DNA from: Zwartia hollandica
GTDB lineage: Bacteria > Pseudomonadota > Gammaproteobacteria > Burkholderiales > Burkholderiaceae_B
Assembly: GCF_019923725.1 (NCBI RefSeq)
Contig: NZ_JAHXRI010000025.1
Coordinates: 124,001 to 188,000, forward strand
DNA length: 64,000 bases
Direction of reading: 5' to 3'
Within the stretch, counting starts at the first letter, position 1, and each line of letters starts with the position of its first letter. Both the position numbers and the translations under genes were made by a program. The notes below the pieces were generated by a model. That model worked only from the letters and a program-made list of their open reading frames with translations. It was not told where the DNA came from and did no database searches. Positions 1,153 to 34,774 of this stretch are shown one piece after another.

Positions 1153-1605
1153 ATGGCGATACAGCTAAAAGTTAATGGTAAAGATCACAGCGTCGATGTC
1201 GACCCCACCACGCCTCTGCTTTGGGTGATTCGCGAGCAAGTTGGTTTGACAGGTACGAAGTACGGTTGCGGTATCGCGCAGTGCGGTTCCTGTACCGTCA
1301 TGTTGGAAGGGCAGGCTATTCGCTCGTGTGTGATTCCTGTGTCTGCAGCCGCAGGCAAAAATGTGCAGACCGTTGAGGGTCTCGCGACAAATGGCAAGCT
1401 GACGAAATTGCAACAAGCCTGGATCGATCATCAAGTGCCACAGTGCGGCTTTTGTCAGTCAGGTATGTTGATGGCTGCGACTGATTTGTTGGCGAAGAAG
1501 TCAAAACCAACTGACGCGGATATTGATGCCGCGATGACAAATATTTGCCGCTGCGGAAGCTTCCAAGAAGTCCGCGCTGCGATCCACTCTGTTGCTAAAG
1601 CCTAA
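1153..1605 (+). CDS. (2Fe-2S)-binding subunit of a molybdenum hydroxylase (IorA-like)
   Basis: This is the small electron-transfer subunit of a xanthine-oxidase-family enzyme, 150 residues as usual. The N-terminal plant-ferredoxin domain carries Cys39, 44, 47 and 59 (GCGIAQCGSC and a later C); the helical second domain carries Cys98, 101, 132 and 134 (CGFCQSG and ICRCG). All eight ligands for two [2Fe-2S] clusters are present. The start is fixed by GGGAG upstream. It lies 11 bases before the molybdopterin subunit. With no FAD subunit gene beside it, this is the two-subunit isoquinoline 1-oxidoreductase / nicotinate or aldehyde dehydrogenase layout that passes electrons to cytochrome c rather than NAD. 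Substrate unknown. Confidence 0.92.
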   Translation: MAIQLKVNGKDHSVDVDPTTPLLWVIREQVGLTGTKYGCGIAQCGSCTVMLEGQAIRSCVIPVSAAAGKNVQTVEGLATNGKLTKLQQAWIDHQVPQCGFCQSGMLMAATDLLAKKSKPTDADIDAAMTNICRCGSFQEVRAAIHSVAKA

Positions 1606-1616
1606 GGGGTCTTCAC

Positions 1617-3806
1617 ATGAATGCACGCGTCCCGAATCCTTCCCGCAGACAGTTTATTGTTGGCTCGACTGCAGTCAGCACAGGTCTTGCAATTGGTTTG
1701 CAGTTTCCCTTCATCAGCTCCGCACAATCGGTCGCCGCGACACCTGAGATCGGTGTGTGGGTGGTTGTGAAGCCTGACGACACCGTTGTCGTGCGTGTTG
1801 TGCGCTCAGAAATGGGGCAGGGCACGATCACTGGTCTAGCGCAGATGGTCGCCGAAGAGCTTGAGTGCGACTGGAAAAAAGTCACGACTGAATATCCAAC
1901 TCCCGGTCAAAGCTTGGCTCGCAAGCGTCCTTGGGGTGACTTCTCCACTGGCGGTAGCCGTGGTATCCGCACCTCTGAACAATACGTGCGCAAGGGTGGG
2001 GCTGCTGCTCGCATGATGTTGGTGCAGGCCGCTGCTGATGAGTGGAAAGTGCCGGCCGCCGAATGCGTCGCAGCCGAAAGCGTGATCACACACACACCGA
2101 GCGGGCGTAAAACAACCTTCGGTAAAGTGGCGTTGGCTGCATCGAAGTTGCCTGTGCCTACCGAGATTACTTTGAAGGACCCCAAGTCCTGGAAGATCAT
2201 TGGCAAGTCGGTACAGCGTATTGACACTTTCGAAGATAAAGTGACCGGCAAACAGGTATACGGCATTGATTTAACACTGCCCGGCATGTTGGTTGCAACG
2301 ATCAAAGAATCCCCAGTGTTTGGTGGCAAGGTTAAGAGTTTTGATGCCGCCAAAATCTCCGGGATGAAGGGCGTGAAAAAAGTTGTACAGGTGGGTGATA
2401 CCGCTGTTGCCGTTGTTGCAGACACCTTTTGGATTGCTAAGACTGCACTGGATGCCCTCCCAATCGTTTGGGACGAAGGTGCAAATGGTAAGGTGAGCAG
2501 TGCCTCGATCGCAGAATCGCTCAAGGAAGGGTTGACGGCTGAGCAGGCCTTTGTCGGCAATACGCGCGGGGATACCAAGGCAGCGATTGCGGGTGCTGCG
2601 AAAAAAGTCGAGTCAACGTACTTCTATCCATTCTTGAACCATGCCCCGATGGAGCCGATGAACGCAACGGCAAAGTGGACACCAGAGCGTTGTGAAGCGT
2701 GGGTGCCTACGCAAGACGGCGAAGCATCCTTAGCCGCAGTGATTGCTGCATCCGGTTTGCCTGGCGATAAGTGTGAGGTCTACAAGATTAATTTGGGTGG
2801 TGGCTTTGGTCGCCGCGGTGCCTTCCAGGACTACACCACGCAGGCGGTCAATATCGCTAAGCAGATGCCTGGTACACCGATCAAACTGATCTGGACGCGT
2901 GAAGAAGATATGACACAGGGTCGTTACCACCCCGTCATGATGTGTAAGCTCACAGGCTCCTTTGATGCCAACAAGAATTTGACGGGCGTGCATATGCGAC
3001 TGTCGGGCCAATCGATTTTGGCAGCTGTGCGTCCCGCAGTAGTGGCTCAGCAAAAAGGTCGCGACCCTCTGGTGTTCCAGGGTGTGTTTGATGGCGGTGA
3101 GCATGGCTTCGGTTACGAGTTCCCTAACCAGTTGATGGATCACGCCATGCGCAATACGCATGTGCCTCCAGGCTTCTGGCGTGGTGTGAACGTCAACCAG
3201 AACGCAATCTTTATTGAGTGCTTCATGGATGAGATGGCTGAGGCCGCTGGAGTCGATGCCGTTGAGTTCCGCCGCAAGTACATGGGTAAGTTCCCGCGTA
3301 ACTTAGCCGTGCTGAACGCAGTTGCGGACGGGATCGGCTGGACCAAGCCTGCTGCAAAAGGCGTGTTCCGCGGAGTCGCGCAAATGACTGCCTTTGGTAG
3401 CTATGTTGCTGCGGCTGCAGAACTGTCTGTGACCGATGGCAATAAAGTGAAGATCCATCGCATCGTTGCCGCAACAGATTGTGGTTATGCAGTGAATCCT
3501 GCGCAGATCGAGCGCCAAGTCTCGGGTTCGTTTGTGTATGGCTTGTCTGCCTTGTTCGAAGAAGAGTGCACTATCAAAGATGGTCGTGTCGAGCAGAAGA
3601 ACTTCGATACGTTTGGTTCGATCCGTTTGGCGCAAATGCCAAAAGTTGAGACCATCATCATTGAAGGTGGTGGGAAAGACTGGGGCGGCATCGGTGAGCC
3701 AACGATTTGCGTGGCAGCCCCTGCAGTGCTGAACGCGATTTATCGCGCGACTGGGAAGCGCTTGCGTGATGTGCCACTCAAGAAGAGTGGCTTTACGTTG
3801 GTATGA
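1617..3806 (+). CDS. Molybdopterin-binding catalytic subunit, IorB-like (xanthine dehydrogenase family)
   Basis: The catalytic subunit (729 residues) hydroxylates a heterocycle or aldehyde at a molybdenum-cytosine-dinucleotide site. The N-terminus has a Tat-type signal (SRRQFIVGS then a hydrophobic stretch ending near SSAQS), which sends the folded enzyme, with its small subunit, to the periplasm. The molybdopterin loop GGGFGRRG and the C-terminal GGIGEP segment, whose glutamate is the catalytic base of the family, are both visible. The length matches IorB/AldB-type subunits without heme domains. Its stop overlaps the next gene, soxX, so the soluble c-type cytochromes encoded downstream are likely electron acceptors. 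The Ior-Sox coupling is inference. Confidence 0.9.
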   Translation: MNARVPNPSRRQFIVGSTAVSTGLAIGLQFPFISSAQSVAATPEIGVWVVVKPDDTVVVRVVRSEMGQGTITGLAQMVAEELECDWKKVTTEYPTPGQSLARKRPWGDFSTGGSRGIRTSEQYVRKGGAAARMMLVQAAADEWKVPAAECVAAESVITHTPSGRKTTFGKVALAASKLPVPTEITLKDPKSWKIIGKSVQRIDTFEDKVTGKQVYGIDLTLPGMLVATIKESPVFGGKVKSFDAAKISGMKGVKKVVQVGDTAVAVVADTFWIAKTALDALPIVWDEGANGKVSSASIAESLKEGLTAEQAFVGNTRGDTKAAIAGAAKKVESTYFYPFLNHAPMEPMNATAKWTPERCEAWVPTQDGEASLAAVIAASGLPGDKCEVYKINLGGGFGRRGAFQDYTTQAVNIAKQMPGTPIKLIWTREEDMTQGRYHPVMMCKLTGSFDANKNLTGVHMRLSGQSILAAVRPAVVAQQKGRDPLVFQGVFDGGEHGFGYEFPNQLMDHAMRNTHVPPGFWRGVNVNQNAIFIECFMDEMAEAAGVDAVEFRRKYMGKFPRNLAVLNAVADGIGWTKPAAKGVFRGVAQMTAFGSYVAAAAELSVTDGNKVKIHRIVAATDCGYAVNPAQIERQVSGSFVYGLSALFEEECTIKDGRVEQKNFDTFGSIRLAQMPKVETIIIEGGGKDWGGIGEPTICVAAPAVLNAIYRATGKRLRDVPLKKSGFTLV

Positions 3807-4246
3807 CCTTAAGGCTTGTTGGTGGGGCGTTGCTTGCGACGATCGTGTCGTTCGTAGCACCCACTACAAGCTTTGCGCAGATTCGCTCTGGGCACGAGAT
3901 TCCCGAGCCTTTGGCGAGTCAGCCAGGGGATGCTGTTCGGGGTAGGGCAATTGTTTTAAGTCGACAAAGCGGGCTTTGCATTCTTTGCCACAGCGGTCCT
4001 TTTCCCGAGGAGCGTTTCCAGGGCAACATGGCACCTGACCTTGGTGTGAGTGCGCAGCGGCTGACGGCGAGTCAGTTGCGAGCTCGTATTGTTGATGCAA
4101 GCGTCTTTAATCCCGAGACGATTATGCCGGCTTATTATCGGTCTAGTGGGTTGAGCCGAGTTGCTCCGGGGTATGCCGGTAAAACATTATTGACTGGCCA
4201 AGAGATTGAAGATGTCGTAGCGTTTTTAGTGAGCTTGAAACCGTGA
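3803..4246 (+). CDS. soxX: SoxX-like monoheme cytochrome c
   Basis: A 147-residue periplasmic cytochrome with a cleavable signal peptide (hydrophobic residues 5-24, cut near SFA-Q). The heme site is CILCH at residues 59-63 and the distal Met is in ETIMPAYYR (Met108), the SoxX pattern; the C-terminal EIEDVVAFLVSLK helix is also typical. In classical thiosulfate oxidation SoxX pairs with SoxA to load substrate onto the SoxY cysteine and takes the electrons. The gene overlaps its molybdenum-hydroxylase neighbour by four bases (ATGA) and overlaps the next gene similarly, so the set is one transcript. Confidence 0.87.
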   Translation: MTLRLVGGALLATIVSFVAPTTSFAQIRSGHEIPEPLASQPGDAVRGRAIVLSRQSGLCILCHSGPFPEERFQGNMAPDLGVSAQRLTASQLRARIVDASVFNPETIMPAYYRSSGLSRVAPGYAGKTLLTGQEIEDVVAFLVSLKP

Positions 4247-4689
4247 CAACAAATCGAAGAACCTTTGTGATGGCGATGGGTGCTGTTGGGTTGGCGTCCT
4301 TTTTTGCTTCGCATGCGACGGAGGATGAGGCGCTGGCCGCCATGAAGGCGATCATGGGCTCTGCTACGCCGCGCGCGGGCAAGGTTACGCTTGAGTTACC
4401 TGCGCTGGTTGAGAATGGCAATCTCGTGACGATCAAAGTCTCGGTCGAAAGTCCGATGACGCAGGCGGATCATGTCAAGGCAGTGCACTTAATTGCGGAA
4501 GGCAATCCCTTGCCAAATATCGTGAGCTTCTTCCTTGGGCCGCGTGCAGGTCGAGCAGAAATTGGCACCCGCATTCGTTTAGCGAACTCTCAGCGGGTCT
4601 GGGCTATCGCCCAGATGAGCGATGGGTCGTTTTGGCGTGGGTATGCTGAAACCTTGGTGACCCTAGCTGCCTGTACGGAGGTCGTATGA
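4243..4689 (+). CDS. SoxY-related carrier protein with AACTE C-terminal arm
   Basis: A 148-residue SoxY homologue with an N-terminal export signal starting RRTFVMAMG. SoxY normally carries sulfur substrate on a cysteine in a swinging GGCGG tail. Here the tail reads VTLAACTEVV, so one cysteine (Cys144) is kept but the glycines are replaced and four residues follow it. I recall a NCBI protein family of SoxY paralogues named for an AACIE arm, which this matches closely. Being translationally coupled to soxX and soxZ argues for a working complex, but its cargo is probably not ordinary thiosulfate. No soxB hydrolase is present to release sulfate. The molecular role is unknown. Confidence 0.8.
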   Translation: MTTNRRTFVMAMGAVGLASFFASHATEDEALAAMKAIMGSATPRAGKVTLELPALVENGNLVTIKVSVESPMTQADHVKAVHLIAEGNPLPNIVSFFLGPRAGRAEIGTRIRLANSQRVWAIAQMSDGSFWRGYAETLVTLAACTEVV

Positions 4690-5015
4690 GTAAGACTTCA
4701 CGTACGCTAGTCACGATGCCAAAGGTCGCGACAAAGGGTGAAGTGATCGCCATTAGAGTGATTGTTCAGCACGACATGGAATCTGGCTTTCGGCACACAC
4801 AGCAAGGTGAACGCATCCCCCGCGATATCATTCGTGAGTTTGTTTGCACATATAACGGGCAGGAAGTTTTTCGTGCGGATCTTCACCCAGGTGTTGGTGC
4901 GAATCCTGTGATTAACTTTTTTACTGTTGCAACCGAGACTGGGTCGCTTGAGTTTAAGTGGATAGGTGATAACGGCTATGCGTCGAGCGTCACCAGCCAG
5001 TTAACCGTTTCGTGA
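4686..5015 (+). CDS. soxZ: SoxZ-like carrier partner
   Basis: A 109-residue immunoglobulin-fold protein without signal peptide, the normal state for SoxZ, which is exported bound to SoxY by the Tat route. Recognisable segments are HDMESGFRHTQQG, RDIIREFVCTYNG and EFKWIGDNG. Its start overlaps the SoxY-like stop (ATGA). It should form the heterodimer that presents the SoxY arm to SoxXA. Length and sequence are ordinary for the family. Confidence 0.9.
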   Translation: MSKTSRTLVTMPKVATKGEVIAIRVIVQHDMESGFRHTQQGERIPRDIIREFVCTYNGQEVFRADLHPGVGANPVINFFTVATETGSLEFKWIGDNGYASSVTSQLTVS

Positions 5016-5028
5016 TCTGTTGGTGTTG

Positions 5029-5802
5029 ATGCGCCGTCTCGCACGTTGTTGCTGGTTGTGGCTAGCGTGTTTGTTTTCTGCCTGCGCCTGGGCAGATCCG
5101 GTGGGGTCTGCGCGTCAGTCGAGTTATGCGCTGATGTCGCCGGAAAATCGCAGCATGCAAGATGATCCGTCACAGAATCCAGCAACGTTTTGGGTGTTGG
5201 ATGGCGAGTCGCTCTGGCAAACACCTTCAGGTAAGCGCCAGATTGCGTGTGCGACATGTCATGGTGCAGAGTCCACCTCAATGAAAGGCGTAGCTGCCAG
5301 CTTCCCTAAATTTGTGGGCTCAAATCTGCTGAGCTTGTCGGATCAGGTCAATGTGTGCCGTCAGACGCGCCAAGAGGGTGAGCCTTATGCGCCCGAGAGC
5401 AAACCTTTACTTGCGCTAACGTCCTATATTGGACAGCAATCGAAAGGCCTGCCAATTACCATTCAGATAACGCCTGTGAATGCTCTTGCGCTTGAAGCGG
5501 GCAAAACATTGTTTTATGAGAAGCTAGGGCAACTCAATCTCTCTTGCGCGCAATGCCACGCCGAGCGGTCGGGGCAAAAGCTTGGGGGAAACCCTATCCC
5601 GCAGGGTCATCCCACCGCCTATCCGCTATACCGTTTGGAGTGGCAATCCGTCGGTTCTTTGCAGCGGCGCCTGCGCAACTGCATGACGGGAGTTAGAGCC
5701 GAGCCGTTCGCGCTTGGTTCAAAAGAGCTCGTTGAGCTTGAACTGTTTTTGATGTGGCGCGCGCGCGGGATGCTAATGGAAACCCCGGGGGTTCGACCCT
5801 AG
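5029..5802 (+). CDS. soxA: SoxA-like diheme cytochrome c
   Basis: A 257-residue periplasmic cytochrome from the ATG at 5029; TTG at 5020 and GTG at 5023 are in-frame alternatives and no strong ribosome site decides. A signal peptide occupies about residues 1-22. Two heme sites are present, CATCH (74-78) and CAQCH (173-177), and a free cysteine in LRNCMTGVRAEPF (Cys218) sits where SoxA has its cysteine persulfide heme ligand. With SoxX it would form the thiol-loading enzyme acting on SoxYZ. It closes the six-gene set begun at 1153; the gap to the next gene holds a separate promoter and operator. Confidence 0.88.
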   Translation: MRRLARCCWLWLACLFSACAWADPVGSARQSSYALMSPENRSMQDDPSQNPATFWVLDGESLWQTPSGKRQIACATCHGAESTSMKGVAASFPKFVGSNLLSLSDQVNVCRQTRQEGEPYAPESKPLLALTSYIGQQSKGLPITIQITPVNALALEAGKTLFYEKLGQLNLSCAQCHAERSGQKLGGNPIPQGHPTAYPLYRLEWQSVGSLQRRLRNCMTGVRAEPFALGSKELVELELFLMWRARGMLMETPGVRP

Positions 5803-5860
5803 GTTTGCGCCGATATTTCTCTTGACACACCTATCCGGCAGGATTGACAATCAATCATCA

Positions 5861-5881
5861 GTATACGAACCGTTCGTATAC
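5861..5881. promoter_or_regulatory. Perfect 21-bp palindrome, likely MarR operator
   Basis: The site is an exact inverted repeat with 10-base arms, GTATACGAAC and GTTCGTATAC, around one central C. It lies just upstream of the MarR-family gene and right after two TTGACA hexamers (5822-5827 and 5844-5849), so a bound dimer would block the promoter. Size and symmetry fit a MarR dimer site and suggest autoregulation plus control of the downstream catabolic genes. I see no second copy upstream of 1153, 6524 or 11628. Confidence 0.75.
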
Positions 5882-5903
5882 AAACGATTGGGCGGGAAGT
5901 CGC

Positions 5904-6494
5904 GTGGCAAAGAGCTTGGGAGCTGGCGAAGGTAAAGGAAGGGCGGCCTTAGTCGTCGTACCAACTGTCGACTCCAAAAGGCAAGCGAGCGGGGCTCCAC
6001 ACACGATTTGGGATCGTCCTGGATATCTGATTCGTCGGCTGCACCAAATTCACGTTGCGATGTTTATCGAGCAAGTTGCAGATGGTCAAGTGACGCCCAT
6101 TCAGTTTGGGCTATTAAGTGTTTTGATGATGCGGCCCGGCGTTGATCAAGCGACGATTGGGGAGGAGATGGGGCTCGACCCCGCCAACGTAGCCGAGATA
6201 CTCAAAAGGCTCGAAGACCGTGGCCTCGTTTCAAGGGTCGTTGATCCACTAAACCGCCGCCGTAAGCTCTGTCTGACAACACCTGCAGGAAAAAAATTCG
6301 TACAGCGCTATCAGCGGGATATGCAGTTATCGCAGCAACAGTTGTTAGAGCCGCTTGTGCCGGCGGAGCGACGTATGTTTCTTGACCTGTTGGTAAGGCT
6401 AGTAGAAGCAAATAATGAGAGCGGCCGCACTTCGTTGCGTCCCGGCGGGAATGCGTTAGACGCACGCCGCAAGCGTAAACAAAATTCTGTGTGA
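5904..6494 (+). CDS. MarR-family transcriptional regulator
   Basis: The winged-helix core is clear: TPIQFGLLSVL, then QATIGEEMGLDPANVAEILKRLEDRGLVSR as helix-turn-helix, then the wing with DPLNRRRKLCLT. MarR proteins are dimeric, usually ligand-released repressors of nearby catabolic genes. The frame is open from a TTG at 5844, but that codon lies upstream of and would translate through the operator palindrome, so I prefer the GTG at 5904 with weak GGCGGGAAG before it (196 residues). Even so the protein has about 35 extra N-terminal residues of low complexity compared with the family; the true start could be further in. It probably controls the preA-hyuAB-dctP-cox genes that follow. Confidence 0.85.
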   Translation: MAKSLGAGEGKGRAALVVVPTVDSKRQASGAPHTIWDRPGYLIRRLHQIHVAMFIEQVADGQVTPIQFGLLSVLMMRPGVDQATIGEEMGLDPANVAEILKRLEDRGLVSRVVDPLNRRRKLCLTTPAGKKFVQRYQRDMQLSQQQLLEPLVPAERRMFLDLLVRLVEANNESGRTSLRPGGNALDARRKRKQNSV

Positions 6495-6523
6495 TTTGAA
6501 ATTATTCGATTTGGAGAAATAGT

Positions 6524-7840
6524 ATGGCTGATCTGTCGTTAGATTTTTGTGGAATTAAGTTTAAGAACCCAGTCGTCATTGCCTCGATTGAGACCACGAA
6601 TAGTCCAGAGGTTATTCGTGAATGTGTCGATGCTGGTGCGGGCGGCATGATCATCAAGACCCTGACCGACATCGAGGATATGGCGCGACTGACGCAGAAC
6701 TCAAAATATGCGATCTTGAACGAAAAGAATGAACCCATCAAAGGCAAGGTAAATAAGAATTTCGTTTTTTATAGTCGTTCAGGCTATTCCAGTACGCCCC
6801 TACGTGAATGGATTCCACATCTCAAGGATCTAAATAAATACGCACAAGATCAGGGCTCGCATCTCATCGGTAGCGCTGGTGGCAAGACGATGCAGAGTTG
6901 GATTGACATCTGTCGCACGATCGAGGACTGTGGTCTTCCAATGGTGGAGTTGAATTTTGGGTGTCCTCACCCAGCCATGATGCCTGGCGTGCATGGCGGT
7001 TCGATGATCGGACAGGAACCAGAAATCGCTCGTGAAGTGACGGCGCGTGTGTGTGAGGCGGTGAAGATTCCCGTTGTGATCAAGCTCACACCGGACCAGT
7101 CTCGAGTGTTGGATGTTGCGCGCGCAGTAAAAGAGGCCGGTGCCTCAGCAGTGACGGCAACCAATCGCTACACAGGCTTTTCGGTTGATATTGAAACAGG
7201 CTTGCCTCGCCTTGGAGGCCCAGCAGGGATCGGTGGGGTTTGGGCTAAGGCGCTCTCGTTACGTTGGGTCAATCGCATCTATACCGAACTTGGGATGCCC
7301 ATTACAGGATCAAACGGTATTTACGACCACCGCGATATCGTCGAGTTCATCATGACCGGTGCACCCTTGGTGCAGGTTGGTTCTGTACTGATGCTCAAAG
7401 GTATCAAGTACTTGCCTAGTATGATCAACGGACTCGATACCTTCATGGATACTCACGGCTATCCTGATATTGCATCCATGACAGGTATCGCTTCACGCCA
7501 GGCGGTAAAAGATTATGGTGAGCAGTTTCGCAAGCCACGCATGCACAGCGAGATCGCAAGCGAGGCCTGTAAGAATCCGAGCTGTACGATTTGCATCCAA
7601 ACTTGTTTTTATGATGCCTTAGCGCAAGGCGATGGGAGTGTTGAATCCATCCATGCAAATTGCATCGGGTGTGAGATGTGTACACAAACCTGTCCCTTTG
7701 ATGCGACGACGATGCACACGACGACCGAGGAGCAGCGTGCGCTCAAAGAGTTCTTTCAAATCAAGCCAGATGTATTTGAAAACAAAAAATTCGAGAAAGG
7801 ATTTGAACGTGGCATCAAGCTATCGAAGGTCAAGGGGTAA
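6524..7840 (+). CDS. preA: PreA-like dihydropyrimidine dehydrogenase subunit (FMN, 4Fe-4S)
   Basis: A 438-residue dihydroorotate-dehydrogenase-fold barrel with FMN (KNPVVIASIETT near the start, PITGSNGIYDHRDIVEF near the phosphate site) followed by two C-terminal [4Fe-4S] clusters at about residues 347-393 (CKNPSCTICIQTC and CIGCEMCTQTC). This is the PreA architecture that reduces uracil/thymine-like rings. The active-site loop NFGCPHPAMMPGVHGG keeps a cysteine. The electron-feeding partner PreT is not in the window, and the protein is somewhat longer than E. coli PreA, so the substrate may be a different cyclic amide. A GGAG site precedes the ATG at 6524. The downstream hyuAB genes begin three bases after the stop. 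Confidence 0.86.
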   Translation: MADLSLDFCGIKFKNPVVIASIETTNSPEVIRECVDAGAGGMIIKTLTDIEDMARLTQNSKYAILNEKNEPIKGKVNKNFVFYSRSGYSSTPLREWIPHLKDLNKYAQDQGSHLIGSAGGKTMQSWIDICRTIEDCGLPMVELNFGCPHPAMMPGVHGGSMIGQEPEIAREVTARVCEAVKIPVVIKLTPDQSRVLDVARAVKEAGASAVTATNRYTGFSVDIETGLPRLGGPAGIGGVWAKALSLRWVNRIYTELGMPITGSNGIYDHRDIVEFIMTGAPLVQVGSVLMLKGIKYLPSMINGLDTFMDTHGYPDIASMTGIASRQAVKDYGEQFRKPRMHSEIASEACKNPSCTICIQTCFYDALAQGDGSVESIHANCIGCEMCTQTCPFDATTMHTTTEEQRALKEFFQIKPDVFENKKFEKGFERGIKLSKVKG

Positions 7841-7843
7841 TTG

Positions 7844-9964
7844 ATGTCAGCTGGGAAATCTCCATTGCAGTACCGCTTCGCTTTTGATATCGGGGGAACG
7901 TTCACCGACCTGGTATTGCTTGGTTCTGATGGTAGTGCCCTGACCGCTAAAGTGCTGACGGGCGTCGGTGATGTCGTACTTCCGATACGCACAGGTCTTT
8001 TGGCGATGCTTAAAGAGCACGGTCTGACTCTGTCGCAGGTGACAGATGTGGTGGTGGGCGCTACGACGGCTGTGACAAACCTTGTGATCGAACGAAAAGG
8101 TGCTGTCACGGGTTTGATTACGACCGCCGGTTTTCGTGACGTATTGGAAATCGCCCGTGAGCTTCGGTATGACCTCTACGACCTCACTGCACCAGGCCCT
8201 GACGCAATCGTGCCCCGACACTTGCGTATGGAGGTCCAGGAGCGTGTCGACGCCTCAGGCGCCGTTGTGCACCCGTTAGATGACGCGGACGTTGAGCGCG
8301 TCGTGGGTCAGCTTAAAGAGGCAGGGGTGCGTGCGATCGCTGTGTGTCTGCTGCATAGTTATAGCAACCCCTCGCATGAGCAGCGTATCAAGGAGGTCAT
8401 TCAGCGTGTTGCCCCTGACTTGTGTGTATCGCTTTCGAGTGAAGTGCTAGGCGAGATGCGTGAGTACGAGCGCTCGGTTGCGACCGTATTGAATGCGTGT
8501 GTGATGCCGATGGTGGGACATTATCTCAGCGCAATTGAAGATGGTCTGCGTCAAACTGGGCTGAACGCGACCCTGCATATCATGCAATCCAACGGCGGCG
8601 TTATTTCTCGACAGTTGGGTGAGCGTATGCCTATCCGTATGTTGGAGTCTGGGCCAGCCGCGGGTGCGCTCGGTGCTGCCTATGCAGCGCGGCTAGCTAA
8701 GACTGCCGATGTGATGGCGTTTGATATGGGAGGGACAACTGCTAAGGCGTGTCTTATTTCGAATGGCCGTCCGTCTATCACGACAGAGTTTGAGGCTGCC
8801 CGGCAAGAGCGCTTTAAAAAGGGTAGCGGTTTACCCGTCCGCTTACCGACGGTCGATTTAATTGAAATCGGCGCGGGCGGCGGCAGTATTGCGCATGTAG
8901 ACACGACCGGATTGCTAAAGGTTGGTCCGCATAGTGCAGGATCGAGTCCTGGTCCCGCATGTTACGGGCTAGGAGGTGAGCGCCCGACGGTGACCGATGC
9001 AGCCTTGGTATTGGGCTATCTGGATCCACAAGGAACATTAAGCGGTGCTGTCCGCTTACGCTTAGAGCTTGCTGAGCAGGCGATTAAAACGCATGTGGCA
9101 GATCCATTGGGGATTTCTGTGATCGAGGCTGCGAATGGTATCCATCGCATCGTTTGTGAGCATATGGCGGTCGCCGCAAAAATTCACGCGGTTGAAAACG
9201 GTCGCGACATCAGGCGTTATACCCTGTTAGCGTTTGGTGGCGCGGGTCCCATCCATGCGCGCGAAGTTGCGCGCCGCAGTGGTTGCCAAGCGGTTTTAGT
9301 GCCTGCAAACGCCGGAGTATTTTCTGCGTTTGGATTATTGGTTGCCCCCATGAAAATGGATCTTGTTCGTACTAAGTTTGTACGGCTGGCAGATATGGAT
9401 TGGGCGGCTACCGAGGCGCTGCTTCAGGGCATGGAGGAAACACTACGCCAGGAGCTCGCTACCGCAGGGGTGGCGAGTAAGGACATACAGTTTCGGCGAA
9501 GCGCGGATATGCGTTATGTGGGGCAGGGTTTCGAAGTTGAAACAGAGCTGCCAGCAGCACTTACTGCGGCAAGGCAATCCGACATTGAAGCGGCCTTTGC
9601 TAAAGCGTATGCACAGCGCTTTGGCGGTCAGTTGACTGCTCAGCGCGTTGAGGCCGTGAATTGGCGCGTCGAGGGTTCCGCTCCAGCGCCAAAGACGGTT
9701 GTGGGCGACGGTACACAAGGTGGGGTGAGTGACGTTTCGACAAAACCTCGGATGCGCTCGGCCTTTTTCCCCGATCAAGGCGTTTATATCGATACGCCAG
9801 TTATGGACGTAACTGCCTTGCGGTTGGGTGAGGATTACGCTGGACCTGCCTTGATAGAGCAGCCTGGATCAACGGTGGTGATTGGTCCCGGCGACCGTTT
9901 TAGGTTGGATGAGCACGCGAACCTACGTATCACATTGGGCGCGAAACAAGGGCATTCCGCATGA
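7844..9964 (+). CDS. hyuA: Hydantoinase/oxoprolinase subunit A
   Basis: A 706-residue ATP-binding subunit of the HyuA/oxoprolinase family. The N-terminal actin-like phosphate loop FDIGGTFTDLVLL is followed by a second phosphate-binding motif FDMGGTTAKACLI and by the conserved IGAGGGSIAHVD. The family uses ATP to drive opening of cyclic amides such as hydantoins, 5-oxoproline, N-methylhydantoin or acetophenone carboxylation substrates. The ATG at 7844, preceded by AAGGGG, is chosen over the adjacent TTG at 7841. It overlaps hyuB by four bases (ATGA). Next to a PreA-like reductase, ATP-dependent hydrolysis of a reduced ring is the natural reading, but this is inference. Confidence 0.9.
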   Translation: MSAGKSPLQYRFAFDIGGTFTDLVLLGSDGSALTAKVLTGVGDVVLPIRTGLLAMLKEHGLTLSQVTDVVVGATTAVTNLVIERKGAVTGLITTAGFRDVLEIARELRYDLYDLTAPGPDAIVPRHLRMEVQERVDASGAVVHPLDDADVERVVGQLKEAGVRAIAVCLLHSYSNPSHEQRIKEVIQRVAPDLCVSLSSEVLGEMREYERSVATVLNACVMPMVGHYLSAIEDGLRQTGLNATLHIMQSNGGVISRQLGERMPIRMLESGPAAGALGAAYAARLAKTADVMAFDMGGTTAKACLISNGRPSITTEFEAARQERFKKGSGLPVRLPTVDLIEIGAGGGSIAHVDTTGLLKVGPHSAGSSPGPACYGLGGERPTVTDAALVLGYLDPQGTLSGAVRLRLELAEQAIKTHVADPLGISVIEAANGIHRIVCEHMAVAAKIHAVENGRDIRRYTLLAFGGAGPIHAREVARRSGCQAVLVPANAGVFSAFGLLVAPMKMDLVRTKFVRLADMDWAATEALLQGMEETLRQELATAGVASKDIQFRRSADMRYVGQGFEVETELPAALTAARQSDIEAAFAKAYAQRFGGQLTAQRVEAVNWRVEGSAPAPKTVVGDGTQGGVSDVSTKPRMRSAFFPDQGVYIDTPVMDVTALRLGEDYAGPALIEQPGSTVVIGPGDRFRLDEHANLRITLGAKQGHSA

Positions 9965-11529
9965 CACAGACAAATCAGACTGCTATGAGTCCCATCGATT
10001 TAGAAATTTATTGGAATCGTCTTATTGCGATTACGGATGAGGCCGGTGCAACGCTTAAGCGAACCTCCTTTTCTACAGTGGTAAGAGAGTCGAATGATTT
10101 TGCGTGTGTCTTGCTCGACACTGAAGCGCGTCTCGTTGCGCAATCCTCACTGAGCATCCCGGGCTTTATCGGAACGGCACCTTTATCACTCAAAGGTATC
10201 TTGAAGGTCATGCCTCAGGAGCAGTTAAAGCCTGGGGATATTCTGTTCACCAACGATCCTTGGATTGGTACGGGACATCTTCCTGATGCGACCATGGTAG
10301 CGCCCATCTTCTTTAAAGGTCGTTTGGTTGCGTATGCGATGGCTGTCGCACACCTCTCTGATATCGGTGGGCGACAGTGGTCTGCCGATGCGGGCGAGGT
10401 CTATGAGGAGGGTATTCGGTTTCCCGTCGTCAAGCTTGCCGAGGAGGGTACGTTCAATCCCTGGGTCATGCAAATGCTTGAGGCGAATGTTCGACTGCCC
10501 CAGCAAGTGCGTGGCGACATAGAAGCGCAAGTAGGTGCCTTACGCGTTGCCGAGCGCCGCTTAATTGAGCTGCTTGAAGAGTACGGAATTCCAGATATCC
10601 GAGAAATTGCAGGCGCAATCTTTAAAGCCTCAGAAGATGCGGCACTGCGCGAACTCCGCAAAATCCCCCCTGGCGTGTACCGAGGCTCGGTTGAATCTGA
10701 TGGCTGGGACGAAACGGTCCGCATCGAGGCAACCTTGACTGTCACGCCTGACGGTGTCACCGTCGATTACAGCGGTAGTACTGGGCAGGTGAGATTTGGC
10801 ATTAATGAGACCTTCAATCATACCTACGCCTATACGATCTATCCCTTTAAGTGCTTGCTCTCACCGGGCATACCGAATAATGATGGCTTCACCCGATTGT
10901 TCAAGGTAATCGCGCCAGAGGGGACGATTGTTAATGCGAAGCCCCCTGCTGCAGTAGGCGCGCGGCATCTGATCGGACACCAACTGCAGGCCGCGGTATT
11001 TGATGCCTTGTCCTCGGTCATGCCAGGTAAAGTGCAGGCAGATAGTGGCACACCGCTTTGGTCTGTTTTGATGCGCGGTGTTGACACTGTGCGTGGCACC
11101 TCCTTCTCGAGCATCTTGTTTTTTAACGGCGGAATGGGCGCGATGCGCGACCGTGATGGAGCGCCGGCAGCAGGTTTTCCGGCCAATATTTCTAATACGC
11201 CCGTCGAGGTTGCTGAGATGCTTTCGCCGGTTCTCTTTCGCAGCAAAAGTTTGATCGATGGGTCAGGTGGCGAAGGAGCCCATCGCGGTGGAATGGGGCA
11301 AAAAGTTTCCTTCCAGTCGCGTTGGCCGGGTCGGCTCCGAGTCTCGTTATTAACGGAACGCACGCGAATTCCTGCGAAGGGCATCGAGGGCGGTTCGGCT
11401 GGTCGTACTGGGCATGTGCTTCTAAATGGGCAGCCGGTGCAGAATCCTAAGGGCGTCGTGGACATGGTTGAGGGGGATACCCTTGAGCTTGCCTTGCCCG
11501 GAGGCGGAGGTTATGGAATTAAGCCCTAG
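9961..11529 (+). CDS. hyuB: Hydantoinase/oxoprolinase subunit B
   Basis: A 522-residue HyuB-family subunit, full length. Typical segments include FSTVVRESNDFACVLLD near the N-terminus, GDILFTNDPWIGTGHLPD, DGSGGEGAHRGGMGQ and the glycine-rich end LALPGGGGYGIKP. HyuB works as a heteromer with HyuA; the ATGA overlap between the two genes fits a fixed stoichiometry. It is cytoplasmic, with no signal peptide. A 98-base gap carrying a direct repeat follows before the TRAP gene. Confidence 0.9.
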   Translation: MTQTNQTAMSPIDLEIYWNRLIAITDEAGATLKRTSFSTVVRESNDFACVLLDTEARLVAQSSLSIPGFIGTAPLSLKGILKVMPQEQLKPGDILFTNDPWIGTGHLPDATMVAPIFFKGRLVAYAMAVAHLSDIGGRQWSADAGEVYEEGIRFPVVKLAEEGTFNPWVMQMLEANVRLPQQVRGDIEAQVGALRVAERRLIELLEEYGIPDIREIAGAIFKASEDAALRELRKIPPGVYRGSVESDGWDETVRIEATLTVTPDGVTVDYSGSTGQVRFGINETFNHTYAYTIYPFKCLLSPGIPNNDGFTRLFKVIAPEGTIVNAKPPAAVGARHLIGHQLQAAVFDALSSVMPGKVQADSGTPLWSVLMRGVDTVRGTSFSSILFFNGGMGAMRDRDGAPAAGFPANISNTPVEVAEMLSPVLFRSKSLIDGSGGEGAHRGGMGQKVSFQSRWPGRLRVSLLTERTRIPAKGIEGGSAGRTGHVLLNGQPVQNPKGVVDMVEGDTLELALPGGGGYGIKP

Positions 11530-12749: not shown

Positions 12750-15134
12750 ATGGGTCACCCAGGTGATGTGAAGCAGATCAAGCCCCAGGGTATCGGGGCG
12801 AGAGTGCAACGCAAAGAAGATGCCCGACATCTTCACGGCAAAGGCAACTTCGTCGCTGACATGACAATGCCTGGGCTGAGTGAAGTCGCGTTCACAAGAA
12901 GCCCTCTGGCCCATGCGCGTATTACAAATATTAGAATTCCGCCCACCTTAGCAGGACAGATATTTGAGCGTCGTGATCTAGTCGGCGCTCTCGATATAGC
13001 TGCCGATTCGTCACTGCCAACATACCAATCTTCCGTGCAATCACCGCTTGCAAGCGGTAAGGTGCGTTTCGTTGGAGAGGCGGTTCTTATGTCTTGCGCA
13101 CCAACGCGTGCTGAGGCCGAGGATCTGCTAGAGCAAGCAGAGGTCGACTATCAGGAACTTCCGGTTTACGCGGATATCCACACGGCTGCGCAAGCCCAAT
13201 CGGATTTGATGCATGAGGGTTGGAAAGATAATATTTTTGTCACACTATCCGCAGACAAGCGCTTTGACGAGTTAAGTGCGAAGGCTGATGTGGTCGTACA
13301 CCGCAAAATGAGCTTGGCTAGACAGTGCCAAGTACCGCTCGAGGGTAAGGCGGTGCTCGCTTACTGGGATCATCCGGCAAACCAATTGGTTGTAGTGAGC
13401 GCAACGCAGGTCCCACACCTCATTCGTACGGCACTCGCGCAATACCTTCAATTAGATCAGGGGCAGTTGCGCGTCATTTCCCCAGACGTTGGCGGCGCCT
13501 TTGGTTATAAGTGTATCTTGCAACCAGAAGAGCTATGCGTTGCCTGGCTGGCGAAGACTTATCGAAAGCCCTTTCGCTATGTTGAAGACCGACGAGAGCA
13601 TTTGATCGCTGGTGCAAATACACGCGAACACTATTACGAAATGACAGCTTACGCCGATAAGCGAGGGCGACTGTTAGCGTTAGATGCGAAGATTACGATC
13701 GATGGTGGTGCTTACTCGGTTTGGCCTTTTACGATCGGCATTGAGCCTGGTCAGGCAGTAGGTAACTTGCCTGGCCCTTATGCCTTTGAGGGATATCGCT
13801 GTGTGACCCGTTGCGTCGCGACGAACAAGCCAGGTTTTGTTCCTTACCGTGGTGTAGCACGCACGGGTGTTTGTTTTGCCATGGAACTCACTTTGAATGC
13901 GATCGCACAAGAGGTTGGCCGTGAGCCCTGGGAGATTCGAGTAGAGAATCTCGTGCAGCCGGAGCAGATGCCTTATCTGAATGTGGCTAATAAATACTTT
14001 GATAGCGGCGATTACCCAGCAAGTGTGCGGCGTGCGTTAGAGATGATCGACTTGAAAGCGATCCGATCGCGTCAAGAGGTTGGGGAGTCGGATGGAAGGC
14101 TCGTCGGATTCGGAATTGCAACCTACACCGAACAGTCCGCCCACGGGACATCCGTCTTCGCTGCATGGGGTATGCCAATTGTCCCCGGTTTTGATCAAGC
14201 GATGGTACGTCTGACCCCAGATGGTGGACTCGACATACGCGTGGGGGTGCATTCGCACGGTCAGGGTATGGAGACGACCTTTGCACAAATCGCCAATGAA
14301 GTTCTGGGTATCGATGTATCGCGTACTCGGGTGATCCATGGCGATACTGGGCAGACACCCTATTCGAGTGGTACTTACGCTTCGCGCTCGCTCGTCATGT
14401 CAGGCGGAGCGGTTTCTCAGGCCTGTAAAAAACTCATCCCGCAGATTTTAAAGATCGGTGCCCACCTGCTTGAGGCAGATGTTGCCTCCGTACATTTTGA
14501 AGACGGTTGTGTCAAAACGGCAAGTGCGCATGTGACCATCGACCAAGTCGCAAACGCTTGGTATCTGAATCCTCAAAGACTACCAACGGATGTCGATCCA
14601 GCTGGATTAGAAGCAACGGTAGGCTATAAGCCCAAAGTTGATACTGGAGCCTTCTCTTATGCCACCCACGCAGCAGTCGTAGCGATCGACCCAAGGATGG
14701 GCAGTGTCGAAATTTTAGATTATGTCGTTGTGGAAGACTGTGGCGTAGTCGTGAATCCGATGGTAGTAGAGGGCCAAACGATCGGCGGCGTTGCACAAGG
14801 AATCGGAACAGCCTTGTATGAAGAAATGCCTTATGACACGTTTGGTCAGCCTCTAGCTTCCACCCTTGCAGACTACACGATGCCCGGTGCGACTGAGGTT
14901 CCTAATATCCGTATCGACCATATTGAAACGCCTTCTCCGCACACAGAATTTGGCGCAAAGGGGATGGGGGAGGGAGGTGCTATCGCACCGCCTGCCGCAA
15001 TTTTTGGAGCGGTTAACGACGCTTTACGTAAACTCGGTGGTCGCATCGAGGTGAATCAGACACCCTTAACGCCACGGCGCCTGCTTGAGGCGATTAATCA
15101 CGCCAAGCAGCAAACCGCAAGGGGTGACGTATGA
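12750..15134 (+). CDS. Molybdopterin-binding large subunit, CoxL/xanthine dehydrogenase family
   Basis: A 794-residue cytoplasmic catalytic subunit (no signal peptide). It contains DVGGAFGYKC at the molybdopterin site, VPYRGVARTG in the substrate loop, where true CO dehydrogenase has a cysteine-bearing AYRCSFR loop, and GAKGMGEGG with the catalytic glutamate. It is therefore a hydroxylase of the CoxL superfamily and not a CO dehydrogenase. It is translationally coupled to the FAD subunit (ATGA overlap), followed by an iron-sulfur subunit fused to CoxG, a complete three-subunit enzyme. The substrate is presumably the heterocycle handled by the preA-hyuAB genes upstream, by context only. Confidence 0.9.
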   Translation: MGHPGDVKQIKPQGIGARVQRKEDARHLHGKGNFVADMTMPGLSEVAFTRSPLAHARITNIRIPPTLAGQIFERRDLVGALDIAADSSLPTYQSSVQSPLASGKVRFVGEAVLMSCAPTRAEAEDLLEQAEVDYQELPVYADIHTAAQAQSDLMHEGWKDNIFVTLSADKRFDELSAKADVVVHRKMSLARQCQVPLEGKAVLAYWDHPANQLVVVSATQVPHLIRTALAQYLQLDQGQLRVISPDVGGAFGYKCILQPEELCVAWLAKTYRKPFRYVEDRREHLIAGANTREHYYEMTAYADKRGRLLALDAKITIDGGAYSVWPFTIGIEPGQAVGNLPGPYAFEGYRCVTRCVATNKPGFVPYRGVARTGVCFAMELTLNAIAQEVGREPWEIRVENLVQPEQMPYLNVANKYFDSGDYPASVRRALEMIDLKAIRSRQEVGESDGRLVGFGIATYTEQSAHGTSVFAAWGMPIVPGFDQAMVRLTPDGGLDIRVGVHSHGQGMETTFAQIANEVLGIDVSRTRVIHGDTGQTPYSSGTYASRSLVMSGGAVSQACKKLIPQILKIGAHLLEADVASVHFEDGCVKTASAHVTIDQVANAWYLNPQRLPTDVDPAGLEATVGYKPKVDTGAFSYATHAAVVAIDPRMGSVEILDYVVVEDCGVVVNPMVVEGQTIGGVAQGIGTALYEEMPYDTFGQPLASTLADYTMPGATEVPNIRIDHIETPSPHTEFGAKGMGEGGAIAPPAAIFGAVNDALRKLGGRIEVNQTPLTPRRLLEAINHAKQQTARGDV

Positions 15135-15967
15135 AGGCTGCACAATTTGAATACGTTTCGGCCAACAGTGTTGAACAAGCCCTTAGCGTGCTGCAGGCAG
15201 GGGGTGAACGAGCAAAGCCTATCGCAGGCAGTCAGTCCCTAGGCCCCATGCTCAATTTGCGTCTGACACGTCCTCAAACTGTTGTCGATCTGTCTAAGCT
15301 CGCAGAGATGCAGACAGTCACTCAGCATCGGAACACGTTGCGCGTAGGTGCTTCGATCACACATGCACAAATTGAAGATGGCGTTTACGAGTTAATACGA
15401 AATCATCCGGTGCAAATGGTCGCATCGCGTATCGCGTATCGCTCGGTGCGCAATCGTGGCACCTTGGGCGGCAGCCTCGCGCATGCAGACCCTGCTGCTG
15501 ACTGGGTGTTAGCGTGTGCTGCACTGGATGCGCGGATTGAGGTTCAATCCGCTTCGGGCACTAAGCTGGTGTCTATATCGGACTTTATGATTGCCGCATA
15601 CACCACAGTACTGGCTGCAGACGATATTATTACCGCAGTACATTTTCCAGAGGTTTCGTCTCGGGCGCGCTGGGGCTATCAAAAGTTTTGCAGAAAGACG
15701 GGTGAGTTCGCACATGCAAGTTGTGCCACCTATATCGATCCTGCCTCAAAAGTTGCTCGCATTGTTGTGGGTGCACTAGATGGTGCTCCTTGTGTGTTGA
15801 GTACGCTGTCGGTAAGTGTTGCCGCCCATGGCCTTGAAGGGTTTGATGAGGCAGCGGTGCAAGCATCCTTGCAGCAGATGCTCCCTCAGCAGGACGACAT
15901 CACTCGGCAAATGTTTGTGCAAGTGGTATTGCGGTGCGTGCACCAGGCGTTCGGAGTACAGCGATGA
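15131..15967 (+). CDS. FAD-binding medium subunit, CoxM-like
   Basis: A 278-residue FAD subunit of the three-part molybdenum hydroxylase. The FAD pyrophosphate motif AGSQSLGPMLNLRL is at about residues 33-46, and the second motif RNRGTLGGSLAHADPAAD lies near residue 107. It carries electrons from the iron-sulfur subunit to the acceptor. The gene overlaps both neighbours by four bases, which fixes its start and stop. Length is normal. Confidence 0.92.
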   Translation: MKAAQFEYVSANSVEQALSVLQAGGERAKPIAGSQSLGPMLNLRLTRPQTVVDLSKLAEMQTVTQHRNTLRVGASITHAQIEDGVYELIRNHPVQMVASRIAYRSVRNRGTLGGSLAHADPAADWVLACAALDARIEVQSASGTKLVSISDFMIAAYTTVLAADDIITAVHFPEVSSRARWGYQKFCRKTGEFAHASCATYIDPASKVARIVVGALDGAPCVLSTLSVSVAAHGLEGFDEAAVQASLQQMLPQQDDITRQMFVQVVLRCVHQAFGVQR

Positions 15968-17166
15968 GCATGAAGACGATTCAAATACAAGTCAATGGGC
16001 AGAGCTCGTCGCAGCAAGTCGCACCCAGGACGCATTTGGGTGATTTTTTGCGTGACCAGTTGCAGTTGACTGGGACGCACCTTGGGTGCGAGCACGGTGT
16101 ATGTGGCGCATGCACGGTGTTGGTTGATGGCGCTCCGGTGCGTTCTTGTATTACCTATGCAGTTGCCTGCGATGGCCAGTCGGTAACGACCATCGAGGGT
16201 TATGGTCAAGATCCGGTAATGAAACGGTTGCGTGATGCGTTTACGGTTCATCATGCGCTTCAGTGCGGATACTGCACTCCAGGGATGTTGGCGAGCGCAC
16301 GAGATATTGTTTTGCGTTTGCCTGAGGCAGACGAAGAGCGCGTGCGGATAGAGCTTGCCGGCAATATTTGTCGGTGTACCGGCTATATGGGGATCGTGGC
16401 TGCCATCATGAGTGTCTTGCGCGATTTGTCGCAGAATCCTGATGCTGAAGTGAATCTGTTGCGCGGTGGCAAGCATGGGCCTCAGACGTCTGAGCGCAGT
16501 GCCACAATACAGTCCGAACGTTTCGAGGGGTTTAGTGCACAAAACAGTGGCCGCGTAGCGGAGTCGCAACAGGTCGTCACAGATGCTGCTCTTGTCACGG
16601 CGGTTAGCAAGGTGACCGGCACAAAAGTCGATGGTTTTTTTGAGGTTCCTTGCTCTGCCGATGACGTCTGGACGCTCATGACGGATTTGCGTCGTGTGGC
16701 ATCTTGTTTGCCTGGTGCACAAGTTGATGAGATGTCTGGCGCTGAGGTGACGGGATCTGTCGCGGTGAAATTTGGCCCGATGTCTGCGTCATTTAAAGGT
16801 CGAGCGATGCTTGAGCTTGATTCGCAAAACAGAAGCGCGGTTTTGCGTGGCAGTGGGCAAGACGCATTAAGCCAATCGCGTGCGACCGGAGACGTGCTCT
16901 ATCGCGTTCAAAGCTTGGATCAATCGCATACGAAAGTCTTTGTTGAGCTGACATATGTCCTACAAGGGCCGTTGGCTCAATTTTCTCGCTCGGGCCTTGT
17001 GCAAGAGTTTGTTCGTCGAATGATTGCAGACTTTGGTCGCAATGTGGCGGGGATCATTCAAGATCCTGATAGGCAACGCGCACCCTCAGCGGCTGCTATT
17101 AATCCTCTCGCCGTATTCGCTTCAATTCTTTGGTCGCGGATCAAGCGTTTATTTGGCGGCAAGTAG
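15964..17166 (+). CDS. Fused (2Fe-2S) subunit and CoxG/SRPBCC domain protein
   Basis: The 400-residue product has two parts. The first about 160 residues form a CoxS-type subunit with all eight cluster cysteines (CEHGVCGAC plus a later C; CGYCTPGM and ICRCTGYMG). After a Ser/Gln-rich linker of about 60 residues comes a CoxG-like SRPBCC domain (GFFEVPCSADDVWTLMTDL, then CLPGAQ and VAVKFGPMSASFKG) and a C-terminal basic, hydrophobic tail. CoxG is normally a separate protein that recruits CO-dehydrogenase-like enzymes to the membrane; fusing it to the electron-transfer subunit would tether the enzyme permanently. ATG 15964 overlaps the CoxM-like stop (ATGA), so the upstream in-frame start at 15934 is rejected. 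No frameshift or stop disturbs the junction. Confidence 0.9.
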   Translation: MSMKTIQIQVNGQSSSQQVAPRTHLGDFLRDQLQLTGTHLGCEHGVCGACTVLVDGAPVRSCITYAVACDGQSVTTIEGYGQDPVMKRLRDAFTVHHALQCGYCTPGMLASARDIVLRLPEADEERVRIELAGNICRCTGYMGIVAAIMSVLRDLSQNPDAEVNLLRGGKHGPQTSERSATIQSERFEGFSAQNSGRVAESQQVVTDAALVTAVSKVTGTKVDGFFEVPCSADDVWTLMTDLRRVASCLPGAQVDEMSGAEVTGSVAVKFGPMSASFKGRAMLELDSQNRSAVLRGSGQDALSQSRATGDVLYRVQSLDQSHTKVFVELTYVLQGPLAQFSRSGLVQEFVRRMIADFGRNVAGIIQDPDRQRAPSAAAINPLAVFASILWSRIKRLFGGK

Positions 17167-31533: not shown

Positions 31534-31820
31534 CCATTGAGCGCCTACCAGCAGGGCAGTTAAACGCATGTCTAGCCTCCATCCCTAATTGGAAGTATGA
31601 CCCTTCCGCTGGTGGCAGTATTAGTCGAAAGTTGGTCTTTGAGGACTTTACGCAGGCCTTCGCTTTTATGACGCGTGTCGCTTTTCTCGCGCACGAAGCA
31701 GACCATCATCCCGAGTGGAGCAATGTGTATAACAAGGTTGAGATCACCCTGCGTACGCACGATGCCGGTGGGTTGTCGATTAAAGATATCGATCTGGCAA
31801 AACGTATTGATCAGATTTGA
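31530..31820 (+). CDS. phhB: 4a-hydroxytetrahydrobiopterin dehydratase
   Basis: A 96-residue pterin-4a-carbinolamine dehydratase with the signature [17 protein letters not shown], whose two histidines and the tryptophan line the pterin pocket. It regenerates dihydropterin after pterin-dependent hydroxylation. No aromatic amino acid hydroxylase is in the window, so here it may act on folate-type or tetrahydropterin by-products. The last ten bases overlap the convergent photolyase gene. Confidence 0.95.
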
Positions 31821-34611: not shown

Positions 34612-34708
34612 GTCTTGGATGGGCCCGCCTGACGACAGCGGTCCGAACAGTACCTAACGTTCTCCCAGTCGCGCTCCCATTTTTTTCTCCAGTTAAAAGG
34701 GCGAGCGC

Positions 34709-34742
34709 AAGTCAGACATACCTTGGAGGGTAAGTCTGACTT
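34709..34742. other. Long inverted repeat between two photolyase genes
   Basis: The arms AAGTCAGACATACC (34709-34722) and GGTAAGTCTGACTT (34729-34742) pair over 14 bases with one mismatch and a six-base loop TTGGAG. It lies in the 163-base gap after the third photolyase gene and before the DASH gene (minus strand). It has no adjoining T-run in either direction, so a light- or stress-responsive operator or RNA processing site is as likely as a terminator. Confidence 0.5.
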
Positions 34743-34774
34743 CTTCTGCATACGATGATTGGAACGCTGAGGCA

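Follow-up and report, generated by a model that had tools for sequence, protein, structure and literature searches.

A 64,000-nucleotide stretch of the Zwartia hollandica genome (hereafter the window; assembly GCF_019923725.1, contig NZ_JAHXRI010000025.1, positions 124,001 to 188,000) contains a six-gene series that joins a periplasmic molybdenum hydroxylase of the IorAB type to a SoxYZ sulfur carrier and to a SoxXA pair of its own. The linkage of such a hydroxylase to a SoxYZ with an AACxE arm and its own SoxXA is real, and it is widespread in alpha- and betaproteobacteria. The set, which we refer to as the module, may feed the sulfur of an organic compound, rather than thiosulfate, into sulfur oxidation. 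A SoxY family with an AACIE arm, so far function-less by name, thus gains a frequent partner, a full operon and a known distribution. Its carriers are many soil and freshwater bacteria, including cultivated strains (Bradyrhizobium, Polynucleobacter), and what the module acts on may be a so far overlooked supply of sulfur and electrons in soil and freshwater habitats.

A molybdenum hydroxylase and SoxXYZA in one gene series

All six genes are on the plus strand. The first encodes an IorA-like small subunit (1153-1605) with two [2Fe-2S] domains, Fer2 and Fer2_2, and eight cysteines; the second encodes an IorB-like molybdopterin subunit (1617-3806) with MoCoBD_1 and MoCoBD_2 domains and a twin-arginine N-terminus (SRRQF). 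A two-cluster 2Fe-2S subunit paired with a molybdenum cofactor subunit that keeps the conserved glutamate places the two in the xanthine oxidase family. They are followed by SoxX, a mono-heme c-type cytochrome (3803-4246; TIGR04485, 75.7 bits against a cut-off of 61), a SoxY paralogue (4243-4689; TIGR04487, 185.2 bits against 172), SoxZ (4686-5015; TIGR04490, 77.4 bits against 76, and PF08770) and a di-heme SoxA (5020-5802; TIGR04484, 215 bits against 110) that has two extra conserved cysteines, C113 and C221. Coordinates and curated models agree with the overlapping series that an earlier note had read from the sequence of this region. IorB and SoxX, SoxX and SoxY, and SoxY and SoxZ overlap by 4 bases each, and the remaining gaps are 11 bases (IorA to IorB) and 4 bases (SoxZ to SoxA); judged from this spacing, the six genes would be carried on a single transcript. 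Promoter-like sites are at shuffle level (4, against a shuffled mean of 3.1); terminator-like sites number 10 against a shuffled mean of 6.3 (standard deviation 3.0), and one of them, a 7-pair stem with a weak T tail, lies at 3773-3791, immediately 5′ of SoxX.

The SoxY arm reads VTLAACTEVV in place of GGCGG, also as the earlier note had it. C144, within this arm, is the protein's sole cysteine, and its N-terminus is similar to the twin-arginine signal of IorB. The protein belongs to TIGR04487 (NCBIfam SoxY_para_1), whose name gives no function but which is here tied to IorAB, SoxXZA and often FccB. It falls below the cut-off for true SoxY (95.8 against 125 bits) and below that of TIGR04557 (58.8 against 140), another SoxYZ-like carrier, named for its association with a quinoprotein dehydrogenase. 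The module resembles canonical Sox in the heme motifs and conserved cysteines of SoxXA, the SoxYZ family and the single arm cysteine, but it lacks soxB and soxCD, has an AACxE or AACxD arm rather than GGCGG, and has IorAB in their place. Window IorAB likewise shares domain make-up, twin-arginine export and motifs with known IorAB-type hydroxylases, the nearest solved chain to IorB being 8gy3_C ("large subunit of aldehyde dehydrogenase", E 5e-66) of an enzyme that is presumably membrane-bound; it differs from these in that its only neighbouring cytochromes are Sox or Fcc ones and that SoxYZ is its partner.

The soxXYZA part of the module was probably seen earlier as Pnuc_1154-1157, an identity suggested by the size of that cluster and by the Polynucleobacter loci described below; the relevant passage of PMC3308952 prints these genes as one of three SOX clusters in Polynucleobacter. 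No description of IorAB together with soxXYZA was found in the searchable excerpts of the open PMC literature, a scope that takes in few subscription papers. A large SoxY survey, according to an excerpt from it (PMC11237559), dropped sequences without the GGC motif as poor quality.

Recurrence of the linkage

Querying 399 same-order genomes with the window SoxY (E <= 1e-20) gave 75 matches in 67 genomes, and we retrieved every neighbourhood, with flanks of about 8 kb per side where contigs allow. By arm type, 55 of these loci are CxE or CxD (CxE/D) and 20 are CG. In 67 of the 75 (48 of the 55 CxE/D loci and 19 of the 20 CG loci), SoxY has IorB within 6 kb. A scan of named contigs with a query built from CxE/D-type arms yielded 80 loci, the best of at least 581, in which IorB is within 6 kb of SoxY in 69 and anywhere in the locus in 70. 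Their titles name Polynucleobacter (21 titles), Zwartia, Reyranella, Afipia, Enhydrobacter, Telmatospirillum, Rokuibacteriota and others. With 25 out of 25 retrieved module-type Bradyrhizobium loci showing the same association, the linkage recurs well beyond the window genome (G000).

The same-order exceptions comprise a canonical GGCGG SoxY (L117), two loci that start close to a contig end (L099 and L120), one in which just a 34-residue IorB match is left (L070), and four SoxXYZA loci without IorAB (L098, L121, L122 and L123). The last four are split loci, with a close IorAB that lacks Sox genes on another contig of each genome (L147, L153, L156 and L157, respectively). The earlier note had raised the alternative that AACxE-arm SoxY proteins usually stand beside soxB and soxCD with no hydroxylase nearby. 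This is not what we observe: none of the 75 same-order loci has a SoxB profile match in its retrieved flanks, and the two that contain SoxC-like genes lack IorB. Pairwise distances among the IorB, SoxY, SoxZ and SoxA proteins are correlated (Spearman 0.74-0.81, n=97, computed without a control gene). The strict TIGR04487 family appears sparse at the level of the class, since G000 alone passes its cut-off in a 369-genome class sample in which three other genomes of the order are listed; elsewhere, one Bradyrhizobium copy scores 229.5 (above 172) and one CG-arm copy 166.2 (below).

Arm type and partner SoxXA seem to go together. In the same-order set, SoxX or SoxA is found in the same locus for 48 of 55 CxE/D arms and for 1 of 20 CG arms (Fisher p 4e-11, kinship ignored), and the one CG-arm locus that has them is the canonical L117. 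All seven CxE/D exceptions have a module-type SoxA, judged by score against a purpose-built profile, elsewhere in the same genome (L073-L096, L075-L099, L076-L122, L078-L121, L079-L123, L094-L178 and L116-L072/L074). One of these partners, L178 (G545:C4:81500-97000), consists of module-type SoxX and SoxA alone, without SoxYZ; the IorAB-SoxYZ genes of that genome are on another contig. For seven CG-arm genomes another SoxXYZA-type cluster was retrieved (L171-L176 and L179), and in the three whose arm is readable (L175, L176 and L179) it is of the GGC type. All 80 named loci combine CxE/D arms with SoxXA, an agreement that is not independent, because the query came from CxE/D arms.

A larger form of the operon

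In many relatives, chiefly alphaproteobacterial, a gene of about 1.3 kb between IorB and SoxX encodes FccB, the flavoprotein of flavocytochrome c sulfide dehydrogenase, identified by the FCSD central and flavin-binding domains of the copy in L258. It is preceded by a small protein (about 99 residues, a single CxxCH), which has no Pfam match and which we assign to FccA by position and motif, making an operon of eight genes; these small proteins form a cluster across 13 loci. FccB was detected in 28 of the 80 named loci and in 2 of the 75 from the same order; three Burkholderiales-type loci (L189, L190 and L196) have it 3′ of SoxA. The relatives' FccB thus resembles FccAB/SoxEF in its FCSD domains, whereas the window operon, where IorB and SoxX overlap, has no such gene, and in G000 a related flavoprotein adjoins the canonical soxCD instead.

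In Bradyrhizobium, a match to the window SoxY at E <= 1e-20 is found in 238 of 265 genomes, and 225 have a best E <= 1e-34; this division is score-based, and the 13 weaker matches, of which the one in G833 proved to be a canonical locus (L302), were set aside. The 25 strong-type loci that we retrieved, mostly picked for large contigs, all carry IorA, IorB, FccB, SoxX, SoxY (AACTE), SoxZ and SoxA in the same order, with IorB and FccB fragmented in L299. In the Afipia locus L229 a SorA sulfite dehydrogenase gene stands just 3′ of the set (700 bits against a cut-off of 600). FccB in the relatives' operons favours sulfur itself as the cargo of the carrier, and a sulfide enzyme within the operon together with SorA once adjoining it makes sulfur the likely one.

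Relation to canonical Sox and to thiosulfate oxidation

The absence of soxB and soxCD reported in the earlier note is correct for the window locus but not for the genome. The sole SoxB of G000 is on contig C22, where locus L138 holds an FccAB-type flavoprotein and small cytochrome, soxC, soxD, soxY (with GGCGG), soxZ, soxA, soxX and soxB (names from translations of open reading frames (ORFs); SoxY, SoxB and SoxA by family models, FccB by similarity). With this canonical set the organism should oxidise thiosulfate conventionally, which would make the window set a second, separate system.

More generally, the module tends to coexist with canonical Sox, although SoxB seems dispensable to it. No SoxB above cut-off is found in 19 of the 67 SoxY-positive genomes, some of them incomplete, which together with the SoxB-free flanks of the 75 loci suggests that SoxB-type release is not obligatory. 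Among 34 chosen genomes with named loci, SoxB is present in 26; the eight without it include Telmatospirillum siberiense and three Reyranella, where incompleteness of metagenome-assembled genomes (MAGs) may play a part.

The Bradyrhizobium genome G893, which we take to be B. diazoefficiens USDA 110, has four SoxY matches: a module locus with an AACTEE arm (L327), a GGCGG SoxXYZAB locus whose flank yielded no soxCD (L328; G893:C1:1109500-1128500), a canonical SoxXYZABCD locus (L329) and a weak match (L330). B. diazoefficiens is described, in an excerpt from PMC5748708, as having two soxY homologs, of which soxY1, in the canonical locus, is the only one that thiosulfate oxidation requires. The module SoxY is one candidate for soxY2, beside three more SoxY matches that include the GGCGG copy of L328. 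Whichever copy is soxY2, the module would have been present and, expression permitting, did not sustain thiosulfate oxidation without soxY1.

Conserved residues and a possible mechanism

The catalytic motifs are intact across the module. C144 of SoxY is kept in 157 out of 157 sequences; both CxxCH motifs of SoxA, along with C113 and C221, in 126 of 126; the heme cysteine pair of SoxX in 125 of 125 and its M108 in 126 of 126. GGGFGR and GGxGEP of IorB are kept in 118 and 121 of 122 relatives, respectively. C113 and C221 of SoxA align with cysteines of the solved SoxA 1h31 that we take to be heme ligands. The glutamate of the GEP motif is the base in carbon hydroxylases of IorB's family, and its conservation argues that IorAB acts on carbon, not on sulfane sulfur. 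In TsdA, a relative of SoxA, a heme-bound cysteine forms a sulfur adduct, a mode of SoxA-family enzymes according to PMC4423706; given this chemistry, the module's SoxXA is expected to be capable of charging SoxY with sulfur.

From the gene linkage, the intact motifs, the export signals and the correlation of arm type with SoxXA we infer, as a reading held tentatively and somewhat short of probable, an organosulfur-to-Sox adaptor: a self-contained periplasmic module that would draw sulfur from an organic, or at least a non-thiosulfate, compound. As to its reaction, step order and substrate, IorAB would oxidise an sp2 carbon of a sulfur-containing substrate so that a thiol is freed or exposed, and SoxXA would oxidatively couple this sulfur to the arm cysteine C144 of SoxY within SoxYZ. 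From the loaded carrier, sulfane sulfur would pass to canonical Sox or to a different sink, and electrons would go to c-type cytochromes. Where FccAB is present, in the relatives' operon or, as in G000, beside canonical soxCD, it may assist sulfane transfer. It is also conceivable, if on the doubtful side, that the module represents a second kind of Sox system, in which SoxYZ carries organosulfur, a molybdenum hydroxylase acting on the carrier-held substrate, or feeding it directly, breaks the C-S bond, and arm and SoxXA have co-diverged so as to separate this carrier from SoxB and thiosulfate.

Evidence against an obligate coupling

The earlier note proposed a special coupling of hydroxylase and carrier; what survives of this is the recurrent linkage, not an obligate one. 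Several observations weigh against the adaptor as outlined. An IorB search of the same order, in which at most two candidates were scored per genome, found 22 close-IorAB loci (L143-L164) without any Sox gene in the retrieved flank, four of which are the split loci mentioned above and two of which (L161 and L163) run into a contig edge on the side where Sox genes would be expected. Seventeen such Sox-less IorB copies match the Sox-linked ones at 138-146 of the 147 positions that the latter conserve, and comparison of the two sets gave just one weak position as a Sox-specific residue. The Sox-less copies are scattered over a tree of 99 IorB rows rather than forming a single clade, although copies do group by Sox context better than with shuffled labels (17 changes against a shuffled mean of 45.0; the long branch of L133 is artefactual). 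Among eight genomes with solely Sox-less copies, including the two contig-edge cases, seven have SoxY elsewhere, and one, G684 (99% complete), has IorAB and no SoxY at all. For comparison, SoxY is found in 2 of 3 genomes that have only a more distant IorB and in 20 of 40 chosen genomes without such an IorB. Close IorAB copies without Sox neighbours imply that the tie between hydroxylase and carrier is not an obligate one and that IorAB can persist without the carrier. The converse also occurs: of the ten named loci without IorB, six are close to a contig edge, and four (L193, L208, L211 and L235) lack it despite complete upstream DNA. To these points must be added that FccB is missing from most same-order loci, and that SoxB is above cut-off in 48 of the 67 SoxY-positive but 30 of 80 SoxY-negative same-order genomes (odds ratio 4.2, p 6e-5, kinship ignored), an excess that would also fit a role within inorganic sulfur oxidation.

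The neighbours of two Sox-less copies may be mentioned here, both identified by eye. Beside IorAB in L151, an ORF at 7155-7631 resembles YeeE/YedE sulfur transporters, and in L159 the IorAB genes (about 7400-10100) are flanked by ORFs resembling formate dehydrogenase accessory and selenocysteine synthase genes.

Alternative explanations

The main rival of the adaptor, which we consider rather unlikely, has IorAB act on the carrier itself: SoxXA would load a thiol (R-SH) as SoxY-S-S-R, IorAB would hydroxylate the adjacent carbon, the product would be released, and SoxY would retain the sulfane, so that IorAB takes the place of SoxCD. It draws on the constancy of SoxYZ as the local partner, 26 of 157 loci (19 CG and 7 CxE/D) having IorAB and SoxYZ without SoxX or SoxA within 6 kb, yet SoxA is found somewhere in 65 of the 67 SoxY-positive genomes. 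SoxYZ-sulfane has moreover been proposed as the true carrier state, as stated in an excerpt from PMC5336275. An IorAB that works on SoxY is hard to square with Sox-less IorB copies that keep the same conserved positions and with the genome that has IorAB and no SoxY. Those same Sox-less loci bear on a looser relationship, in which the substrate of IorAB is an ordinary aldehyde or N-heterocycle and the hydroxylase shares with the Sox genes only regulation and electron sinks, SoxXA or FccA accepting the electrons. No called CxxCH gene lies within 5 kb of IorB in L143-L164, which leaves the hydroxylase without a cytochrome dedicated to it at these loci, and the nearest solved relative of IorB is the large subunit of an aldehyde dehydrogenase. 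Since such sharing leaves unexplained SoxYZ, the IorAB-SoxYZ loci without local SoxX or SoxA, and FccB, we think it unlikely.

We likewise see little chance that the module is an inorganic side branch, in which thiosulfate or sulfide is handled directly and IorAB is an unusual sulfane dehydrogenase. FccB in the relatives' operon, SorA in L229, the intact SoxXA and the excess of SoxB in SoxY-positive genomes all fit this account, but the GEP glutamate and the GGGFGR motif, both retained in IorB, are what one would expect in a carbon hydroxylase (a mechanism known from the family), and soxY1 alone is needed for thiosulfate oxidation in B. diazoefficiens, as described above, though the putative USDA 110 genome holds the module, which may or may not be expressed under those conditions. 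A more specific organic substrate is suggested by the MarR, PreA-like, HyuA and HyuB genes directly 3′ of SoxA (window 5844-11529): the module might strip sulfur from a thiohydantoin or thiopyrimidine so that PreA and HyuAB can use the hydantoin-like product. Five close relatives (L183, L184, L185, L189 and L217) have MarR and PreA after SoxA, and four of them HyuA as well; HyuA and HyuB (41% identical) lie 3′ of SoxXYZA in the unrelated L230. There is, however, no other HyuA or HyuB match in the named flanks, nor do these genes cluster with the window's in the same-order loci (where gene calls are imperfect), and MarR, with its own inverted repeat and promoter-like site, looks like the start of a separate unit. 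One bacterial route for ergothioneine runs through a desulfhydrase and a hydantoinase, genes that our searches did not find. No gene fitting IorAB was found in excerpts of the literature on ergothioneine and thiohydantoin, including PMC13405746. With no fitting gene and hydantoinase genes not conserved beside the module, we keep this link as a weak rival and regard it as very improbable.

Surroundings of the operon and other observations

The inverted repeat at the MarR start (5852-5890) is imperfect, with 19-base arms that are 84% complementary and separated by 1 base, and is a likely operator. A promoter-like site lies at 5822-5851, although sites of this kind occur no more often than in shuffled sequence. 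From this arrangement the genes from MarR onwards (PreA-like, HyuA and HyuB) look like a unit separate from the operon.

Attempts to read the substrate from conserved flanking genes were abandoned: the recurrent aroE-, tonB-, RNB- and POR-like genes in the scanned same-order loci come from a single family, f227, TctC-like receptors are scattered, and the Bradyrhizobium flanks vary, with a solute-binding protein in 8 of 25. Gene clusters c7-c10 in high-GC loci were antisense shadow ORFs and were discarded.

Farther along the window, a second molybdenum hydroxylase set (12750-17166) comprises a CoxL/XdhA-like subunit, an FAD subunit and a 2Fe-2S subunit fused to a CoxG domain, and is preceded by a TRAP solute-binding protein gene. 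Three adjacent minus-strand ORFs at 31811-36313 resemble photolyase/cryptochrome by eye. Locus L184 is titled as a Bordetella parapertussis MAG, probably a mislabelled environmental bin; it shares the window's flanking genes, and its SoxY is 88% identical to the window SoxY.

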